DNA of 11,267 nucleotides from Gemmatimonadota bacterium (GTDB lineage: Bacteria; Gemmatimonadota; Gemmatimonadetes; Longimicrobiales; UBA6960): positions 1-11,267 of the forward strand of contig JAHWKH010000039.1 of the NCBI GenBank assembly GCA_019347995.1, written 5' to 3'. Shown piece after piece: positions 1,397-10,213 of the stretch. Positions within the stretch are counted from its first letter, which is position 1. Every line of letters begins with the position of its first letter. Both the position numbers and the translations under genes were made by a program. The notes beneath the pieces were generated by a model. It was not told the DNA's origin and searched no databases. It saw only the letters and a program-made list of their open reading frames with translations.

Positions 1397-1650
1397 GGGA
1401 GATCCGGGGTGATCGGCCGCGCAGGGCCGTGGAAGCGCAACATAGGGGCCGTGGGGGACGGGCGCCACGCGTGTGACGCGGCCCGCCGGGCCGGCCGACG
1501 AGCACCACCTGGTGGGGTGAGCCGACCGGCGCCGCCGCCAGCTCGGTCCCGAGGGCCTCCCAGCGCTCCGGCACCCACGGCGCCTGCGGGTCGAGCCGCT
1601 GCGCCGTCGCGTCCCGCACCCGCTGCTCGGCGTCGTGAAGGCTGGTGGCC
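1397..1650. other. Stretch without an intact gene between the GGDEF gene and the truncated RND gene
   Basis: These 254 bases separate the divergently read GGDEF and RND genes. The part next to the GGDEF start (about 1397-1480) shows no consistent coding signal on either strand and should carry the GGDEF promoter. On the minus strand a TATGTT at about 1442-1447 is the only -10-like hexamer, and I see no convincing -35 partner. The remainder is occupied by the coding-like minus-strand fragment listed separately. No tRNA, repeat or terminator is visible. Confidence 0.5.
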
Positions 1651-1652
1651 AT
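1479..1652 (-). pseudogene. Coding-like orphan fragment, function unknown
   Basis: Reading the minus strand from the ATG at 1652, the first 58 codons have G or C at the third position in all but two. They give a normal-looking hydrophilic peptide (MATSLHDAEQRVRDATAQ... ending near HQVVLVGRPGG). After about 1480 the third-position bias collapses, although the frame stays open into the GGDEF gene. Upstream of 1652 the same strand is antisense to the RND gene. The start codon shares the palindrome CCATGG with the first in-frame ATG of the RND remnant, so neither gene has room for a promoter here. I do not recognise a family. The best reading is a gene remnant cut at both ends by rearrangement; a real short gene is less likely. 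Confidence 0.35.
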
Positions 1653-4134
1653 GGTGGTGACCCGGCCGGCCAGCGCCGCCGACGTGGGCGCGGCGGTCAT
1701 CGCGTCGCGCGCCGGCACGCCGGTGCGCGTGGGCGACGTCGCCACCGTCCACGACACGTACGAGGAGGCCACCGAGCTCCAGCGCATCGACGGCCGCCCC
1801 GCCGTCAGCTTCGACGTGGTCAAGGCGGTCGGGACCAACACGGTCCGCGCCGCCGACCGGGTGAAGGCGCGCCTGGCGCGGCTGGAGGCGACCCTGCCGT
1901 ACGGCGCCGCGTTCGTGCTGGTGGACGACGAGAGCGAGGACATCCGCCGCCAGCTCTCGGACCTGCGGCTGCGGGCGGTGGTGGCGGCGGCGGTCATCTT
2001 CCTGGTGCTGCTCGGGTTCCTGGGCTCCTTCCGCTCGGCGGCGGTGGTCTTCGCCACCATCGCCTTCAGCGTCCTCATCGCGCTGAACCTCGTCTACTTC
2101 GGCGGGCTCTCCCTGAACCTCCTGACCCTCATGGGCCTGGCCATGGGCTTCGGCCTGGTGGTGGACAACGCCATCGTGGTGCTGGAGAACGTCTTCCGGC
2201 GGTGGCAGGCCGGCGAGGCCGCCCCCGACGCCGCCGAGGCGGGCACGCGCGACGTGGTCCTGCCGATCCTGGCTTCGACGGCCACCACCCTCATCGTGTT
2301 CGTGCCGTTCGTCTATCTCCAGGGCGAGCTGCGCGTGTTCTACGTGCCGTTGGCCGTGGTGGTGGCCCTCACGCTCGTCGCGTCCCTCTTCGTGGCGTTC
2401 ACGTTCGTGCCGGCGCTGTCGGCGCGGCTGCTCTCGGCGCGGGCGGGGCGGGGGGTGCGAGCGGGGGGCGTGCTGCGAGGGGGAGGGCACGGCGGCGACC
2501 CGAGCCCGGCGTCCGGGCCGCCCGCCGGCCCAGCCGCCCACCCCCCCCTCTACGTCCGCTTCTACGCCGGCCTGCTCGACCTGACCCTGCGCCACCCATG
2601 GCCCACCGTGGCGGTGGCCGCGGTGCTCCTCGCCGGCTCCTGGACCCTCTTCGACCGCTACGTCACCCGCGGCGTGGTGTGGGGAGGTGGATGGGGGCAG
2701 CAGACCTACATCCTCATCAACGTGGAGCTGCCCCGGGGCTCCAACCTGGAGCGCACCGACCAGCTCGTGCGCTTCTTCGAGGAGAGGCTGGCCGGACTGC
2801 CGGAGGTGGAGCGCTTCACCACCACGGTGAACCAGACCTCCGGCCGCATCGAGGTCACCTTCCCCGACTCGCTCGAGAGCACGTACGTCCCGGTGGCCAT
2901 CAAGGAGCGGATGTTCGGCTACAGCCACACGTTCACCGGGGCCCAGGTGCGCGTGTACGGCTACGGCCCCTCGTTCTACGGCGGGGGAGGGGCGCCGCCC
3001 ACCTATGGCATCACGGTGCTGGGCTACAACTTCGAGCGCGTGCGCGAGATCGCCGAGTCGCTGGGCGGGCGCATCGCCCGCCTGTCCCGCGTCGCCGAGG
3101 TCGACACCAACGCCTCCGGCGCGTTCACCCGGGACCGTGCCAGCGAGTTCGTGGTGCGCGTGGACAGGGACGCCGTGTCCCGCCACGGCCTCACGGTCCG
3201 CGACCTCGTGGCGCGCATGAACGCCGCCGTCGGAGGGGGCGGCGGCCTCGCCCGGGTGAAGCTGGGCGGCGAGGAGGTCGACGTCCGCGTCGCCCTGAGC
3301 GGCGCCGACGAGACGGACGTGCTGGCGCTCGAGGAGACCCTGCTGCAGGGGCCGGGGGGCGAAGGGATCCGCCTCGGCGACCTGGTCGGCGTGGAGTCAC
3401 GCGACGTCCTGGCCAACATCCACCGCGAGAACCAGCAGTACGAGCGGCGCGTGGCGTACGAGTTCCGCGGCCCCCGCAGGCTCGGCGACCTGGTGCAGGA
3501 GGCCGTCATCGCCAGCACCGAGGTGCCGCCGGGCTACACGGTGGAGAAGGCCGAAGGGTGGCGCTTCGGAGACCAGGAGCGCCAGCAGGTGCTGATGGTG
3601 CTGCTGGTGGCGTTGACGCTGGTCTACATGGTCACCGCGGCCCTCTTCGAGTCGCTGCGCCAGCCGCTGTGCGTGATCCTCACCGTGCCCATGGCCGCCA
3701 TCGGCATCTTCATGATCTTCTTCTACACCGGCGCCACGTTCACCCGCGAGGCCTACATCGGCGCCATCATGACGGGCGGCATCGTGGTGAACAACGCCAT
3801 CCTGCTGGTGGACCACCTGAACCGCGTGCGGTCGCGGCGCGGGCTGCGATTCGAGGCGGCGGTGGTCACCGCGACCCTGGAGCGCGTGCGGCCGATCCTC
3901 ATGACGACGGCCACCACGGTCCTGGGCCTGCTCCCCCTCGTGGCGTTCTCCGGCGCCGACGAGAACATCTGGAACGCCCTGGGCTTCACGCTGATCGGCG
4001 GCCTGCTCTCCTCCACGCTCCTGGTGCTCACCGTCACCCCCGCCCTGTACCTGCTCATGGAGCGGGGAAGGGGGGAGGCCGCGCTGGCGTCGCGCATCCT
4101 GCCCCCCGCAGCCGCTGCCGCCGGCGCCGACTGA
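1651..4134 (+). pseudogene. RND-type efflux transporter, N-terminally truncated
   Basis: This is an inner-membrane proton-driven efflux pump subunit of the AcrB/HAE or NolG-like RND group. The 827 residues from ATG 1651 start in the first periplasmic porter region (TPVRVGDVATV). They then run through TM2-TM6 (about residues 105-265), a low-complexity Gly/Pro/Ala linker (about 270-305), TM7, the second porter domain (about 345-645), and TM8-TM12. The TM4 motif GLVVDNAIVVLEN holds D172, equivalent to AcrB Asp407, with Asn in place of Asp408. The TM10 motif reads VVNNAILLVD, with Asn where AcrB has Lys940. These changes occur in related RND branches and do not by themselves mean loss of function. 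AcrB Asp407 corresponds to residue 172 here, so about 230 residues (TM1 and most of the first porter domain) are missing. An in-frame TGA at 1636-1638 closes the frame upstream. No adaptor or outer-membrane channel gene is present. Probably non-functional, unless the junction is an assembly artefact. Confidence 0.85.
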
Positions 4135-4143
4135 TCCGGCGCT

Positions 4144-4722
4144 TCAGCCGCCCACGGCGTCCAGGGCCGCCCGCAGGTCGGCCTCCAGGGCGTCCTCCCG
4201 TAGCACCGGTCGGTAGCTCGCCCCCTCGAGGAAGAGCCCCGGTGTCCCCGTGACCCCGCTGGCGCGGCCGCCGCGCATGTCGCGCCATATGCGCTCCGCG
4301 TGGGTCCGTTCCCGCACGTCGCGATGGAGGCGCTCCACGTCGAGCCCCAGCTCGGCGGCGACGCGGTCCAGCTCGCCGGGACCCCGCCGCGGATCCATCT
4401 CGAGAAGCCGGTCGTACATGGGCCAGAACGCCCCCTGGGCCCCGGCGGCCTCCACCGCCAACGCCGACTGCATGGCCCGGGGGCGGCTGGAGACGAGAGG
4501 GAAATGGCGGTGCACGAAGCGCACGCGCTCCCGCAGCTCCTCGCTGAGGGCCCCGAAGACGCCGTGGAACGCCTGGCAGTCGGGGCATTCGAAATCGGCG
4601 TAGGCCACCAGGGTGACGACGCCGGAGGTGGGGCGGAAGCGGTCCGCCGCCTCCACGGGGACCCGCAGCCGACGCTCGGGATCCAGGACTCCATGGGGAA
4701 GGACGAGGGTGGGTGGGGTCAT
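4144..4722 (-). CDS. DsbA-family thioredoxin-fold oxidoreductase, cytoplasmic type
   Basis: The 192-residue protein has a DsbA-like thioredoxin fold and should catalyse thiol-disulfide exchange. The strand VVTLVAYADFECPDC carries the active-site CPDC at residues 46-49 (C46, C49). A long helical insertion follows (about 60-150), and the cis-proline loop is GVTGTP with T160-P161 before a final strand and helix. There is no signal peptide or lipobox, so it resembles the cytoplasmic DsbA-like group, whose domain also occurs fused to some NhaA antiporters, rather than periplasmic DsbA. Pro-Asp between the cysteines is unusual beside the commoner Pro-Tyr or Pro-His. The start is ATG 4722; upstream bases give only a weak purine stretch. 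The stop lies 9 bp from the RND stop (convergent). The gene is divergent from glnS across 193 bp. The physiological substrate cannot be told from the sequence. Confidence 0.85.
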   Translation of the reverse strand: MTPPTLVLPHGVLDPERRLRVPVEAADRFRPTSGVVTLVAYADFECPDCQAFHGVFGALSEELRERVRFVHRHFPLVSSRPRAMQSALAVEAAGAQGAFWPMYDRLLEMDPRRGPGELDRVAAELGLDVERLHRDVRERTHAERIWRDMRGGRASGVTGTPGLFLEGASYRPVLREDALEADLRAALDAVGG

Positions 4723-4797
4723 GGGCGTTCTCGCGAGGGCTCGTGCGGCGAGGGGCGAGCCGAAAGATGGGTGGACGCCGCCGGGCCATCCAGGGGC

Positions 4798-4820
4798 GGA
4801 GGGGTGTTCCGGACCCCTCC
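4798..4820. promoter_or_regulatory. 8-bp inverted repeat GGAGGGGT-N7-ACCCCTCC in the divergent promoter region
   Basis: The arms 4798-4805 and 4813-4820 are perfect complements around a 7-bp centre. The dyad lies between the dsbA-like start (4722) and the glnS start (4916), just upstream of a TACGTT at 4841-4846 that may be a -10 element for glnS (TGC precedes it, so an extended -10 is possible). No T-run follows, so it is not a standard terminator. It may be a repressor or activator operator for one or both genes, or an RNA hairpin in an upstream-initiated transcript. The repeat is visible; the role is inference. Confidence 0.4.
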
Positions 4821-4915
4821 AGTCGTCCGGGGGTTGTTGCTACGTTGGACCTGCCGCCGCGCATCGCGGCCGCCGACGCCCCGACGCTACCCCTCTCCGG
4901 ACCTGCCACCACACC

Positions 4916-7321
4916 GTGAGCGACACCTCCTCCGGCACCGCCGCCGAGCCCCGCGCCCCCGGGCGGGATTTCATCCGCCAGACCATCGACCGCGACCTGG
5001 AGAGCGGTCGCTGGGACCGGGTCGTTACGCGCTTCCCCCCCGAGCCCAACGGCTTCCTGCACATCGGACACGCCAAGGCGGTGTGCCTCAGCTTCGGCAT
5101 CGCGGAGGAGTACGGCGGCCGCTGCCACCTGCGCTACGACGACACCAATCCGGAGACGGAGGAGGACGTCTACGTCCGCGCCATCGCCGCCGACGTCCGG
5201 TGGCTGGGCTTCGACTGGGGCGGGCATCGCTACTTCGCGTCCGACTATTTCGAGCGCATGTACGCGTGCGCCGAGCTGCTGGTGGAGAAGGGCAGCGCGT
5301 ACGTGGACTCCTCCTCGGAGGAGGAGATCCGGGAGATGCGCGGCACCCTCACCGAGCCGGGGCGGGAGAGCCCCTTCCGCGACCGCCCGGTGGAGGAGAA
5401 CCTGGACCTCCTGCGGCGCATGAAGGCCGGCGAGTTCCCCGACGGCGCCCACGTGCTGCGCGCCAAGATCGACATGGCCTCGCCCAACATGGTCATGCGC
5501 GACCCGGTGCTCTACCGGATCCGGCACGCCACGCACCACCGGACCGGCGACGAGTGGTGCATCTACCCGCTCTACGACTACGCCCACTGCCTCGAGGACG
5601 CCTTCGAGGGCATCACCCACTCCCTGTGCACGCTGGAGTTCGTCCCCAATCGGGCGATCTACGACTGGGTGCTGGACGAGGTTGGCTTCGAGGAGCCGCG
5701 CACGCACCAGTACGAGTTCAACCGCCTGCACCTCGAGTACACGGTCCTCTCCAAGCGCAAGCTCATCCGGCTGGTGCGGGAGGGCCACGTGGACGGATGG
5801 GACGATCCGCGCATGCCCACCCTGACCGGGCTGCGACGCCGAGGCGTTCCGCCCGGCGCCGTGCGCGCGTTCTGTGGATCGCTGGGGGTCACCAAGAGCG
5901 ACAGCCGGGTGGACGTGGCCAAGCTGGAGCACGCCATCCGTGAGGAGCTCAACCAGGAGGCGCCCCGGGTCATGGGGGTGCTGCGCCCCCTCCCCCTCAC
6001 CGTCACCACGTGGCCCGAGGGGGAGGTGGACTGGATCGACGCGCCCAGCTATCCGAAGGACGTGGGCCGGGAGGGCAGCCGCCGGATCCCCTTCGACGGC
6101 AAGCTCCTGGTGGAGCGCGACGACTTCCGCGAGGACCCGCCGAAGGGCTGGTACCGCCTGGCGCCGGGCCGGGAGGTGCGCCTGCGCTACGGCTATTTCG
6201 TCACGGTGGACGAGGTGGTCCGCGATCCGGAGACCGGCGAGGTGGCCGAGCTGCGCTGCAGCCACGATCCCGCCACGCGGGGCGGCGACGCGCCGGACGG
6301 GAGGAGCCCCAAGGGCACGATCCACTGGGTGTCGGCGGCCCACGCGCTGGACGCGGAGGTACGCCTCTACGACCGGCTGTTCTCGGTGCCGGACCCCGAC
6401 GACGTGCCCGAGGGCGAGGACTTCACGTACCACCTCAACCCCGGCTCGCGGATTGTGCTGGAGGGGGCGAAGGTGGAGCCGTCGCTGGGCCAGGCGCCCC
6501 CGGACACGCGCTGGCAGCTGGAGCGCACGGGATACTTCTGGCGCGACCCCGAGGAGGGACGAGGGGAGCGCCTGGTGCTGAACCGCATCGTCAGCCTGCG
6601 CGACGCGTGGGCGCGGCGCGAGGCGGCGGAGGACGCCCGGGGCGGCGCCACCGACCATCCGGAGCCTGTGGGTGGCTCACCGACGGCGCACACCGAGCCG
6701 CCTCCCGAGCAGCGCCCCGGCGCCGGGCCCGAGACGCGGGTCAGCGACGCCAGGGAGCGCGCCCGCTCGGCGGACCCTGAGCTGGCTCGCCGCCGCGCCC
6801 GCTACCTGGACGCGATGGGCCTCGATGCCGACGCCGCGGGCATCCTCTCGGGCGACCGCGCCCTCTCCGACTTCTTCGAAGCCGCCGTGGAGGCCCATGA
6901 CGCCCCCGGGAGCGTGGCTTCGTGGGTGGTCAACGACGTGCTGCGCGAGCTGGGCGAGCGCGATCCCGGCGATCTGCCCTTCGGGGGCGCCGCCCTGGGA
7001 CGGCTCGTTCGGCTGGTCGACGAGGACCGCGTCACCCGCGCCCTGGCCCGGCAGGTGCTGGCCGAGATGGCGGCCGAGGGGGGCGATCCCGACGCCATCG
7101 TGGAACGCCGCGGCCTCACAAAGGTGAGCGATCCCGACGCCCTGGAGCCGCACGTGGAGCGGGCGCTGGCCGAGCGCCCCGACAAGGTGGAGGAATACCG
7201 CGCCGGCAAGACGGGGCTCCTGGGCTTCTTCGTGGGACAGGTCATGCGTGCCACCGGCGGAACCGCCGACCCGAAGCTGGTGGCGGCCCTGATGCGCGAG
7301 CGCCTGGAGGGCGACGGATGA
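4916..7321 (+). CDS. glnS: Glutaminyl-tRNA synthetase with C-terminal YqeY-like domain
   Basis: GlnRS attaches glutamine to tRNA-Gln with ATP in the cytoplasm. The 801-residue protein opens at GTG 4916, the only start just before the conserved opening (RDFIRQTIDRDLESG); the ribosome site is weak. The class I signature PNGFLHIGH is at residues 45-53 with HIGH at 49-52. The KMSKS equivalent is LSKRK at 278-282. The catalytic core (about 15-330) and the two beta-barrel anticodon-binding domains (about 335-560) are complete. A Pro/Glu/Ala-rich linker (about 570-615) then leads to a YqeY/GatB-tail-like helical domain (about 620-801), ending in GLLGFFVGQVMRATGG with an invariant-looking Lys-Gly-like turn. 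Deinococcus GlnRS carries the same kind of tail, where it helps tRNA binding. The stop codon overlaps the gltX start (ATGA). Its presence implies direct Gln-tRNA formation rather than sole reliance on transamidation. Confidence 0.95.
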   Translation: MSDTSSGTAAEPRAPGRDFIRQTIDRDLESGRWDRVVTRFPPEPNGFLHIGHAKAVCLSFGIAEEYGGRCHLRYDDTNPETEEDVYVRAIAADVRWLGFDWGGHRYFASDYFERMYACAELLVEKGSAYVDSSSEEEIREMRGTLTEPGRESPFRDRPVEENLDLLRRMKAGEFPDGAHVLRAKIDMASPNMVMRDPVLYRIRHATHHRTGDEWCIYPLYDYAHCLEDAFEGITHSLCTLEFVPNRAIYDWVLDEVGFEEPRTHQYEFNRLHLEYTVLSKRKLIRLVREGHVDGWDDPRMPTLTGLRRRGVPPGAVRAFCGSLGVTKSDSRVDVAKLEHAIREELNQEAPRVMGVLRPLPLTVTTWPEGEVDWIDAPSYPKDVGREGSRRIPFDGKLLVERDDFREDPPKGWYRLAPGREVRLRYGYFVTVDEVVRDPETGEVAELRCSHDPATRGGDAPDGRSPKGTIHWVSAAHALDAEVRLYDRLFSVPDPDDVPEGEDFTYHLNPGSRIVLEGAKVEPSLGQAPPDTRWQLERTGYFWRDPEEGRGERLVLNRIVSLRDAWARREAAEDARGGATDHPEPVGGSPTAHTEPPPEQRPGAGPETRVSDARERARSADPELARRRARYLDAMGLDADAAGILSGDRALSDFFEAAVEAHDAPGSVASWVVNDVLRELGERDPGDLPFGGAALGRLVRLVDEDRVTRALARQVLAEMAAEGGDPDAIVERRGLTKVSDPDALEPHVERALAERPDKVEEYRAGKTGLLGFFVGQVMRATGGTADPKLVAALMRERLEGDG

Positions 7322-8772
7322 GCCCGCGCCTGCGCTTCGCGCCCTCGCCCACGGGCTACCTCCACGTGGGCGGCGCCCGCACCGCGCTCTTCAACTGGCT
7401 CCTGGCCCGGGGCTGGAGCGGCACGCTGGTGCTGCGCATCGAGGACACGGACCGGGAGCGCTCCAGCGCCGAGCACACCCGCGCCATCCTGGACGGCCTC
7501 GGATGGCTCGGCATTGACTGGGACGAGGGTCCGCTCTACCAGAGCGACGGGCTCGAGCGGCACCGCGCCGACGCGCTGCGGCTGCTGGACGAGGGCAAGG
7601 CGTACCGCGACTTCACGACGCCCGAGCTCCTGCGCCTGGAGGCCGAGCGGCGCGGCATCGAGAACCCCAGCGCGCTGGCCCGCGTATTGGCGGACGAGGC
7701 CGGGCCGGACGCCTCCGCGCGCCGCGCCGACGGCGGCGAGGACTTCGCCGTGCGCTTCAGGGTCCCGGAAGGCGAGACCTCGTGGAAGGACCTGGTGCAC
7801 GGGGAGATGCGCTTCGCCAACGCCGACATCGAGGACCTGGTCCTCCTGCGGAGCGACGGCACGCCTACCTACAACCTGGCCGTCGTGTCCGACGACGCCG
7901 ACGCGGCCATCACCCACGTGGTGCGGGGCGACGACCACGTCTCCAATACGCCCAAGCAGATCCTCCTGTATAGGGCCCTGGGCCTGGAGGTGCCCACCTT
8001 CGGCCACGTGCCCCTGATCCTAGGCCCGGACGGGCGCCGCCTCTCCAAGCGCCACGGCGCCACGGCGGTGGGCGAGTACGAGGAGCGCGGGATCCTCCCG
8101 GAGGCCATGGTGAACTTCCTGGCGCTCCTGGGCTGGAATCCGGGCGACGAGCGCGAGGTGATGGAGAAGGCCGAGCTGGTGGAGGCCTTCTCGCTGGACC
8201 GCGTCCAGGTCAAGAGCGCGGTCTTCGACCACGAGAAGCTGGGCTGGCTCAACGGGCGCTGGCTCGAGCGGCTGCCGCCGGAGCGCGTGGCGCCGCTGGT
8301 GGCCCGGCGCCTGGAGGCCCACGGCGTGGACGAGCACGTGCTGGAAGGGCGCGGGGAGTGGTGGCTCCGCCTGGTGGACCTCCTGAAGGCGCGGGCGCGC
8401 TCGGTGGACGAGGTGGCCGCGGCCGCGACGATCTACCTGGGGAGCGGCGTGCCCGCCTACGACGATACGGCCGTGGCGAAGCACTGGGAGAAGGATCCGG
8501 GGGCCGCGGAGGAGCGCCTCGAGGCCCTGCGGGATCGTCTGGGCGCGGGTCCGTGGAAGGAAGCGCCCCTGGAGGAGCGTCTGCGGGCCCTCGCGGAGGC
8601 CCGTGGCGAGGGAGCAGGCAAGGTGATCCACCCCCTGCGTGTGGCGCTAACGGGGCAGCGGGCCAGCCCCGGAATCTTCGAAGTGCTCGTGCTCCTGGGG
8701 CGCGAGGAAAGCCTCGCCCGGATCGAGGAGGCGCTGCGCCGAATCCGCGCAGCGGCGGGCCGGAGCGGGTGA
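7318..8772 (+). CDS. gltX: Glutamyl-tRNA synthetase
   Basis: GluRS charges tRNA-Glu with glutamate, feeding both translation and 5-carbon tetrapyrrole synthesis. The 484 residues match the usual bacterial length. The HIGH-type motif is PSPTGYLHVGGAR (HVGG at 16-19), followed by LRIEDTDRERS. The KMSKS loop is RRLSKRHGA (LSKRH starting at residue 242). The HVVRGDDHVSNTPKQ segment is typical of the catalytic domain, and the C-terminal 150 residues form the helical anticodon-binding domain. The cysteines that bind zinc in E. coli GluRS are absent (AYRDFTT region), as in many other bacterial GluRS enzymes. The ATG at 7318 overlaps the glnS stop by 4 bases, so the two synthetases are translationally coupled. 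With a separate GlnRS present, this enzyme may be discriminating (tRNA-Glu only), but that cannot be read from the motifs. Confidence 0.96.
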   Translation: MSPRLRFAPSPTGYLHVGGARTALFNWLLARGWSGTLVLRIEDTDRERSSAEHTRAILDGLGWLGIDWDEGPLYQSDGLERHRADALRLLDEGKAYRDFTTPELLRLEAERRGIENPSALARVLADEAGPDASARRADGGEDFAVRFRVPEGETSWKDLVHGEMRFANADIEDLVLLRSDGTPTYNLAVVSDDADAAITHVVRGDDHVSNTPKQILLYRALGLEVPTFGHVPLILGPDGRRLSKRHGATAVGEYEERGILPEAMVNFLALLGWNPGDEREVMEKAELVEAFSLDRVQVKSAVFDHEKLGWLNGRWLERLPPERVAPLVARRLEAHGVDEHVLEGRGEWWLRLVDLLKARARSVDEVAAAATIYLGSGVPAYDDTAVAKHWEKDPGAAEERLEALRDRLGAGPWKEAPLEERLRALAEARGEGAGKVIHPLRVALTGQRASPGIFEVLVLLGREESLARIEEALRRIRAAAGRSG

Positions 8773-8833: not shown

Positions 8834-8863
8834 TTGACACCCTTCGAAGCCTTGGCGTACGAT
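8834..8863 (+). promoter_or_regulatory. Sigma-70-type promoter for the lexA-like gene
   Basis: A perfect -35 TTGACA (8834-8839) and a -10 TACGAT (8858-8863, four of six consensus bases) are separated by 18 bp. An AT-rich stretch (AAACATCCTTTTC) lies just upstream. Transcription would start near 8870, giving a leader of about 120 bases before the ATG at 8991. An 8-bp palindrome CTTCGAAG (8842-8849) sits inside the spacer and could be an operator. It does not match the classical E. coli (CTGT-N8-ACAG) or Bacillus (GAAC-N4-GTTC) LexA boxes. Confidence 0.7.
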
Positions 8864-8990: not shown

Positions 8991-9644
8991 ATGCCTCACG
9001 CGTTGACCGATATCGAGCGGAAGATCCTGGACTACATGGTCCAGTATCTTCGCTCCAACACATACCAGCCCTCGATCCGCGAGATCGGCGAGCGCTTCGG
9101 CATCAAGAGCACCAAGACGGTCTCCGAGCACCTCCAGGCGCTCGCCAACAAGGGCCATCTCGAGCGCGATCCCTCCCGCTCGCGCGGGGTGCGCATCCTG
9201 GGCGTGGACCTCAATCCCGACGCGGTGTCCATCCCCTGCTACACCCAGGTCCCCGACGAGCGCGCGCTGGGCCGGGGTGCCGAGGCCGACGCCCACATCA
9301 CGCTGGACCGCCGCCTGGTCGGCGCGAACGGCGGATTCTTCGTGCGCGCCCAGGGGGAGGGTCTGGCGGTTCTGGGGATCGAGGACGGAGACCTCCTGCT
9401 GGTGGAGCCGGCCGCCCTGGACGAATGCGAGGACGGCGCCGTGGTGCTGGTGCGCCGCGGCCCGGCCGCCAGCTTCCATCGCATCGGAAGGAACGGCCGC
9501 GGCGTCACGCTGCAGGCCCTGCGGCCCGGTGAGGCGGCCACGGTGGTGGAGGAGCCGGGCACCCTGCCGCTGGTGGGGAAGGTGAGCGCCCTCTTCCGCC
9601 GCATGGACGGCCGCACCGCCGCGGTGAGCCTGACCGCCCACTGA
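8991..9644 (+). CDS. LexA-like repressor with degenerate (non-catalytic) S24 domain
   Basis: The 217-residue protein has the LexA layout. Residues 4-68 form the winged helix-turn-helix (LTDIERKILDYM, PSIREIGERFGI, TVSEHLQALANKGHLERD, RGVRI). Residues 80-203 match the S24 latch/peptidase fold, ending VGKVSALFR. In classical LexA the second half cleaves an Ala-Gly bond using a Ser-Lys dyad when RecA is activated. Here the GDSM serine motif aligns without gaps to G122-E-G-L125, so Ser is replaced by G124. The VKR lysine position reads SFHR (F162, no Lys). The cleavage region IPCYTQVPDERA has no Ala-Gly. The surrounding frame residues (FFVRA, GIEDGDLLLV) are well conserved, so this is not random decay. 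It is probably a DNA-binding regulator with another input signal. A RecA-cleaved SOS repressor is unlikely. Start ATG 8991 has GGAG six bases upstream. The fold is confident; the regulon is unknown. Confidence 0.85.
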   Translation: MPHALTDIERKILDYMVQYLRSNTYQPSIREIGERFGIKSTKTVSEHLQALANKGHLERDPSRSRGVRILGVDLNPDAVSIPCYTQVPDERALGRGAEADAHITLDRRLVGANGGFFVRAQGEGLAVLGIEDGDLLLVEPAALDECEDGAVVLVRRGPAASFHRIGRNGRGVTLQALRPGEAATVVEEPGTLPLVGKVSALFRRMDGRTAAVSLTAH

Positions 9645-9730: not shown

Positions 9731-10213
9731 ATGGCCCGCGCCCTGGAGCAGGCGAGGGCGGCCGCGGCCGTGGGCGAGGTGCCGGTGGGAGCCGTGCTGG
9801 TCCACCAGGGCGGAATCCTCGCCGAGGCGCACAACCTCACCCTCACCCTCGGCGATCCCACCGCCCACGCCGAGATCCTCGTGCTGCGGGAGGGCGCGCG
9901 GCGCCTGGGGGGCTGGCGGCTGCTGGACACCACCCTGTACGCCACGCTCGAGCCGTGCGCCATGTGCGCCGGAGCCGTGGTCCTGGGGCGGGTGCCCCGG
10001 CTCGTGTACGGCGCACCGGACCCCAAGGCCGGCATGGTGGGCTCGCTGGGGGACCTTGCCCGGGATCCGCGGCTCAACCACCGGGCGGAGGTGACGTCGG
10101 GCGTCCTGGCCGACGCGTCGGGAGAGCTGCTGCGGGGGTTCTTCCGCGAGCGGCGGGAGCCGGGCGGTCCGGGGGCGGAGGATGGCGGGGGTGGCGCCCA
10201 GGACGGTGCCTGA
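9731..10213 (+). CDS. tadA: tRNA-specific adenosine-34 deaminase
   Basis: TadA converts adenosine to inosine at the wobble position of tRNA-Arg(ACG), letting it read CGU/CGC/CGA codons. The zinc site is complete: HAE at residues 46-48 (H46 ligand, E48 proton shuttle) and PCAMC at 75-79 (C76 and C79 ligands). EVPVGAVLV at the start and NHRAEVTSGVLADASGELLRGFF near the end also match the family. The 160-residue length is normal, with a Gly-rich tail. Start ATG 9731 is the first ATG or GTG in frame, but family members usually have a few residues before the matching YWM (here LWM), and there is no ribosome site. A non-standard start a little upstream (such as CTG 9725) is therefore possible. It lies 86 bp after the lexA-like gene, whose transcript probably extends into it, and it overlaps the next gene. 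Confidence 0.93.
   Translation: MARALEQARAAAAVGEVPVGAVLVHQGGILAEAHNLTLTLGDPTAHAEILVLREGARRLGGWRLLDTTLYATLEPCAMCAGAVVLGRVPRLVYGAPDPKAGMVGSLGDLARDPRLNHRAEVTSGVLADASGELLRGFFRERREPGGPGAEDGGGGAQDGA

Follow-up and report, generated by a model that had tools for sequence, protein, structure and literature searches.

The window, by which we mean the whole stretch of DNA analysed here (11,267 nucleotides from a Gemmatimonadota bacterium), encodes a LexA-type protein in which the residues of self-cleavage are replaced. The locus raises the question of whether this gene, called lexA2 below, is a specialised paralogue that works beside a normal LexA and RecA, or the LexA of a lineage that has rewired its SOS response. 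Both answers were put forward in the sequence-only reading that first described the gene. The features of lexA2 on which the argument depends are the following.

8991..9644 (+): lexA2 gene, ATG start, 217 aa, coding for a LexA-type protein without cleavage site or catalytic dyad
8991..9212 (+): DNA-binding half, residues 1-74, delimited by domain match and homologue identity
9108..9143 (+): STKTVSEHLQAL stretch, residues 40-51, aligned with the recognition-helix segment of LexA
9255..9260 (+): Asp89-Glu90, at the position of the scissile Ala-Gly, by alignment to E. coli LexA and LexA1
9360..9362 (+): Gly124, at the position of the catalytic Ser, by the same alignments
9477..9479 (+): His163, at the position of the catalytic Lys, by the same alignments

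Domains and Cleavage Residues of the Window Protein

The protein matches LexA_DNA_bind (PF01726) over residues 4-66 (4.9e-20, 71.5 bits, cut-off 23.7) and Peptidase_S24 (PF00717) over residues 99-197 (2.3e-8, 34.2 bits, cut-off 23.3), and the former match bears out the LexA-type DNA-binding half recognised earlier. The segment aligned with STKTVSEHLQAL is the part that we take to recognise DNA. With the TIGR00498 lexA equivalog the protein scores 105.2 bits, just below the family cut-off of 110.95. For residue assignment the protein was aligned with E. coli LexA by phmmer and with a LexA1 of Gemmatimonadota by MAFFT, and its two domains align throughout with both proteins. In these alignments the Ser-Lys dyad is absent, its places being taken by Gly124 and His163 with Arg164 retained, and the scissile Ala-Gly is replaced by Asp89-Glu90. 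The sequence-only reading had correctly placed a glycine at the serine of GDSM (GEGL, residues 122-125) and described a hinge without Ala-Gly. It was also right that the lysine is lost from SFHR and wrong in placing it at position 162, as F162 corresponds to the preceding Val and His163 to the Lys. Because the dyad is missing, RecA-stimulated self-cleavage of the window protein is not expected from its sequence.

The predicted model of the protein has a mean pLDDT of 80.5 and a pTM of 0.60, and its best structural matches are LexA structures (T. maritima LexA, E 5.1e-14). Over the full length the eight best matches give a TM of 0.42-0.50 and an rmsd of 8-10, while single-domain TM, normalised by target, reaches 0.77 for the C-terminal and 0.82 for the DNA-binding domain. 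The fold of each domain is therefore predicted to be retained, with the mutual placement of the domains unsettled.

Residue Variation Among the Closest Relatives

The homologue set consisted of the best 120 matches to the window protein, with the window's own protein (P0001) counted in. Over these 120 window-type rows the Ser position holds D in 45, E in 44, G in 22, S in 5, A in 2 and Q in 2, the Lys position holds Lys in 0/120, and Ser plus Lys occurs in 0/120, the window's own row included. The dyad is likewise lacking in the nearest relatives, P0002 (91% identical to the window protein; GDGL/SFHR) and P0003 (82% identical; GDGL/SFQR). It is for that reason unlikely that the replacements are due to a sequencing error or that this copy is decaying by itself, both of which had been named as grounds for refutation; the lack of Lys from all of the best matches speaks against an error at these positions, and selection on the gene persists.

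An acid stands at the Ser position in 89/120 window-type rows, the Lys position is His or Arg in 87/120, and the two occur together in 59/120. Such an acid/basic pair may form a salt bridge, the window protein itself having Gly and His. A second group of dead LexA2 proteins, the Gemmatimonadaceae type with members named Gemmatimonas, has an intact dyad in 0/120 among the matches listed, and has D or E in place of Ser in 117/120 rows and Arg in place of Lys in 120/120. It is conceivable, and we propose it only tentatively, that the old active site was rebuilt in parallel within one phylum: the second, DNA-damage-cleaved repressor of an ancestral two-LexA system would repeatedly have become a non-proteolytic regulator, and the dead site may now be a salt bridge or a ligand pocket that carries the switch.

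Mean identity of the 119 homologues to the window protein is 91% in the DNA-binding half and 53% in the remainder. Over 46 aligned proteins, conservation is 90% or higher, up to invariance, at every position of QPSIREIGERFGIKSTKTVSEHLQ, and the C-terminal half has near-invariant residues towards its end (G196, V198, R203, R204). These late residues and the predicted S24 fold would suit a partner of LexA1 in mixed dimers, through which LexA2 would tune LexA1 and could do without an operator. We regard this as quite unlikely, since conservation is highest in the DNA-binding half, which speaks for specific DNA sites.

LexA1 and RecA in LexA2-Bearing Genomes

The sample comprised 121 genomes of the phylum to which G001, a MAG with the title Gemmatimonadetes bacterium, belongs, drawn at a minimum completeness setting of 90. 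LexA2 is present in at least 65 of these 121 genomes, a count that may miss weaker copies, and weak extra LexA matches (e.g., G030:C64) stand outside the LexA1/LexA2 classification. A separate TIGR00498 match elsewhere in the genome, referred to as LexA1, accompanies LexA2 in 64/65, the one in G103 being truncated by a contig end, and G001 is the sole LexA2-bearing genome without a LexA1 match. Loss of the normal LexA in LexA2 genomes is rejected on these matches. Ala-Gly, Ser and Lys are all present in the 36 LexA1 proteins read, 12 of which come from LexA2-bearing genomes (G002, G003, G004, G010, G034, G050, G054, G071, G084, G085, G098, and G105). A second lexA with intact residues, on which the choice between the two answers had been made to hang, was thus found in relatives.

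RecA had been brought up for the same purpose, and here the outcome is mixed. It was matched (TIGR02012) in 17 of the 20 LexA2 genomes searched, and G001, G077 and G098 gave no match with TIGR02012 or PF00154. G077 carries LexA1 and LexA2 on one contig of more than 3.5 Mb, and in both G077 and G098 the two LexA proteins are accompanied by the direct-repeat boxes described below. An incomplete assembly of G001 is one possible reason for its missing LexA1 and RecA, and only one, because RecA went unmatched in G077 and G098 as well, although LexA1 is present there. The RecA-LexA1 picture leaves the missing matches in 3/20 genomes unexplained. For the window organism itself, LexA1 and RecA are inferred from its relatives.

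A side observation concerns Y-family polymerases (PF00817), which gave no match in 7 of 12 LexA2 genomes of mostly intact dyad (G107, G028, G023, G064, G013, G096, and G018) and were matched in 13/13 window-branch genomes.

Ancestry, Synteny and Repeated Loss

A tree of 69 LexA2 and 14 LexA1 proteins was obtained by a quick search over an alignment with trait columns included, and 21 of its 80 inner branches are open. In this tree LexA2 forms a single clade against LexA1 with 100% SH-aLRT, and the window protein lies inside it. Ser and Lys are both kept in 13 of the 69 LexA2 copies (12 of them also with Ala-Gly), Lys only in 1 and neither in 49; Ala-Gly without Ser and Lys is kept in 2/69. The earlier claim that the three cleavage elements vanished together while the fold was kept therefore describes the window protein and does not extend to the family, where 6/69, for example, keep Ser without Lys.

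Dyad loss takes 5 parsimony changes on the quick tree, and 6 all-lost clades stand among intact ones, which suggests some five or six separate losses of the dyad. The same tree places intact forms near the base of LexA2. Longimicrobium-type LexA2 proteins have Ala, Gly, Ser and Lys intact in 120/120 among the matches listed, and P0121, whose source name is Longimicrobium terrae, is identical to the LexA2 of locus L110. Judged from these placements, LexA2 was ancestrally cleavable.

The neighbours of lexA2 are shared as well. In the window these are:

7318..8772 (+): gltX-type glutamyl-tRNA synthetase gene, conserved upstream neighbour (window annotation and locus comparison)
9731..10213 (+): tadA-type deaminase gene, downstream neighbour conserved in the window's branch (window annotation and locus comparison)

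Either gltX upstream, tadA downstream or both occur at 68/68 distinct lexA2 loci (73 rows, 5 of them duplicates); counted by row, gltX is present in 63 and tadA in 39 of the 73. The sequence-only reading had likewise seen tadA next to lexA2, and the other companion it named, a surface lipoprotein, is a GHL10-family protein (PF02638). Synteny and tree fit vertical descent with repeated loss. Recent horizontal acquisition of lexA2 is rejected because the synteny is shared and LexA2 is monophyletic.

Elsewhere in the window, a glutaminyl/glutamyl-tRNA synthetase-type protein with a fused C-terminal GatB/YqeY domain (4613-7321) lies directly upstream of gltX. An integrase-core (rve) fragment (24-458) stands at the window start, followed by an ORF on the minus strand that joins a cyclic-nucleotide-binding domain to a GGDEF diguanylate cyclase domain (455-1468) and by an AcrB-type transporter ORF (1645-4134), which is matched by its profile only from position 231, the N-terminal part being outside the frame.

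Selection on the Two Halves

Pairwise dN/dS was calculated by the Nei-Gojobori method for each half separately. In window-branch LexA2 the DNA-binding half gives 0-0.07 (10 pairs), and the DNA-binding half of LexA1 is looser at 0.02-0.19 (8 of 9 pairs). The dead C-terminal half of the window branch gives 0.12-0.40 (9 pairs, with 1 more not computable), compared with 0.05-0.14 for living LexA2 (4 pairs, including the living-vs-dead pair L118-L119), 0.01-0.15 for LexA1 (7 of 9 pairs computable) and 0-0.21 for other dead LexA2 lineages (5 pairs). Dead LexA2 copies remain under purifying selection in the pairs tested, most strongly in the DNA-binding half. Some loosening of the dead C-terminal half is real, because its values exceed those of living LexA2 and LexA1; this half is less constrained than the living ones, yet far from free.

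That loosening, and a LexA2 match in G029 whose aligned part is reported to contain an in-frame stop, could be read as signs of a pseudogene-like relic, a gene of fading function in which the DNA-binding half survives by chance. Such a relic is highly improbable, as the other frames are open, dN/dS is well below 1 in both halves for every computable pair, and the neighbouring genes are conserved.

Candidate SOS Box, Promoter and Operator Searches

The upstream regions of lexA1 (among L048-L087 and L155-L157) and recA (L158-L173) share a direct repeat, TTCG-N7-TTCG, mostly in the form TTCGG-N6-TTCGG. It precedes 35 of 36 lexA1 genes, in two copies in 32 of them, and all 13 recA genes read (of 17 recA loci). 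The lone lexA1 row without it (L058) is the second LexA of G093 and has GAAC-N4-GTTC upstream. The repeat also stands at 14/15 presumed imuB loci and 2/13 dinB-type loci, where 'imuB' was inferred from weaker IMS scores (two below the Pfam cut-off) and no ImuB model was used. Counts over 17 LexA2-bearing genomes are 316 for TTCGG-N6-TTCGG and 94 for the reversed control pattern, the former being the higher in 17/17. The repeat looks like the LexA1 operator, and is a candidate SOS box of Gemmatimonadota, which is the subject of none of the listed open-access papers on LexA and SOS.

The box was found in 0/69 regions upstream of lexA2 and is absent from the window. Genomes in which LexA2 was not seen have it before lexA1 too, and the protein that reads it is therefore likely to be LexA1. 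Since LexA1 coexists with LexA2 and since lexA1, recA and presumed imuB carry this common box, LexA2 is read as a specialised paralogue, as one of the two original answers had it, and not as the centre of a rewired SOS response.

LexA2 might still bind the boxes of LexA1 and, being non-cleavable, compete there or act as a brake, which would fix the basal level and the length of the SOS response. Both proteins have the LexA winged helix, the recognition segment is partly common (TV-x-EHL in the window's branch), and the two coexist in nearly all LexA2-bearing genomes. However, the segments differ in the rows read, being of the type STKTVSEHL in LexA2 vs SLATVHEHL in LexA1, the box stands before lexA1 even where LexA2 was not seen, and a constitutive non-cleavable competitor would work against induction. 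On balance this role is rather unlikely.

One further locus, L295 (G098, C1), has a LexA-type match that closely precedes a Y-family polymerase match, taken to be imuB, and no direct-repeat box, which suggests a lexA-imuB cassette under its own control.

The window lexA2 does have a strong-looking promoter pattern of its own, as had been claimed:

8834..8863 (+): sigma70-like lexA2 promoter TTGACA-18 nt-TACGAT, 10/12 matches, 0.1 expected in shuffles

In the 220 nt that precede the domain start, TTGACA is found in 14/25 window-branch rows and 1/44 other LexA2 rows, and the shorter TTGAC in 17/25 and 25/44, respectively. In G036 the same promoter type occurs at 5 intergenic sites, which are those of lexA2, of nuoA, rpsL and rplM (recognised by eye) and one other. 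The pattern fits constitutive expression of lexA2 in the window's branch; strong constitutive expression is not extended to the whole family, because of the uneven distribution of TTGACA.

Counts of dyads and spaced pairs upstream of lexA2 genes gave nothing usable as an operator, the pair GTAC-N6-GTAC standing before 3/69. A de novo repeat scan of 1.84 Mb of G036 for the operator and targets of LexA2 gave mainly dispersed repeat elements. These intergenic elements lie on contigs C2, C7, C14, C22 and C29 (L177, L182, L189, L197, L204, and others) and have GTGGC-N5-GCCAC and ACTCA-N8-ACTCA cores.

Proposed Role of LexA2

Taken together, lexA2 is probably a second LexA of Gemmatimonadota, inherited vertically, which was once self-cleaving, lost cleavage in several lineages including that of the window, and now would serve as a RecA-blind constitutive regulator outside the SOS response. 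The starting point would have been a normal self-cleaving repressor. The window LexA2 would be a constitutively made dimer that RecA could not switch off by cleavage, and the dimer would bind its own operators and regulate genes outside SOS. Its switch, if there is any, would be occupancy, a ligand, a modification or turnover, in a manner comparable to the LexA of Synechocystis; no ligand or signal for LexA2 was found in this analysis, and a LexA2 without any switch is possible.

The name 'repressor' should be taken as homology-based, because no target was found in these searches. LexA2 could instead be mainly an activator or a nucleoid-type organiser. LexA homologues can take other roles, and according to the excerpts of PMC6182141 a phage-encoded LexA homologue activates the lytic genes of GIL01. 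The sequence offers nothing that favours activation over repression, and we consider this alternative unlikely.

Within a single orthologous gene, LexA forms a natural series that runs from cleavable to non-cleavable, mostly alongside an intact LexA1, and the role of a RecA-free LexA therefore becomes testable. The cleavable form is carried, according to the name given by one source, by Longimicrobium terrae, a cultured species. Gemmatimonadota also gain a candidate SOS box of the direct-repeat type. Several sources name LexA2 proteins 'repressor LexA', which could mislead SOS inference for this phylum.

Comparison With Known Systems

In Synechocystis sp. PCC 6803, according to PMC3091678, the catalytic Ser of LexA is changed to Asp and Ala-Gly to Gly-Gly. 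The protein is tied to non-SOS genes, and phosphorylation has been suggested as a graded control (excerpts of PMC3091678 and PMC7567884). It is an apt precedent for altered cleavage residues and non-SOS genes, as the sequence-only reading had proposed. Like it, the window LexA2 has neither the catalytic Ser nor Ala-Gly. Unlike it, the window LexA2 has also lost the dyad Lys, a loss that is not among the changes reported in those excerpts, and LexA2 is a second LexA, beside a LexA1 match in 64/65 genomes, with losses that recur across the phylum.

Canonical LexA (TIGR00498) and Gemmatimonadota LexA1 share PF01726 and PF00717 with the window LexA2, in the same order and with the same predicted fold. 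In contrast to them, the window protein is without Ser, Lys and Ala-Gly, has another recognition segment and falls below the family cut-off; its promoter, unlike that of Gemmatimonadota LexA1, has no SOS box. The LexA2 of Longimicrobium terrae belongs to the orthologous clade and has the gltX and tadA neighbours (L110) and the STKTVSEHL segment, whereas the Longimicrobium type keeps all four cleavage residues. Two LexA proteins per genome are also reported for Leptospira interrogans, with its LexA2, and for Deinococcus radiodurans, with a second LexA (excerpts of PMC3789691 and PMC8072749). The LexA2 of Leptospira, unlike that of the window, retains Ser and Lys and is located in a prophage-like region (same excerpts).

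No report comparable to the Gemmatimonadota LexA2 family was found among the open-access titles and opening lines of abstracts listed, and the passages found in PMC8565304 make no mention of Gemmatimonad-. A non-cleavable LexA is already known; what appears to be new is a phylum-wide second LexA that has repeatedly lost cleavage, mostly beside an intact LexA1.
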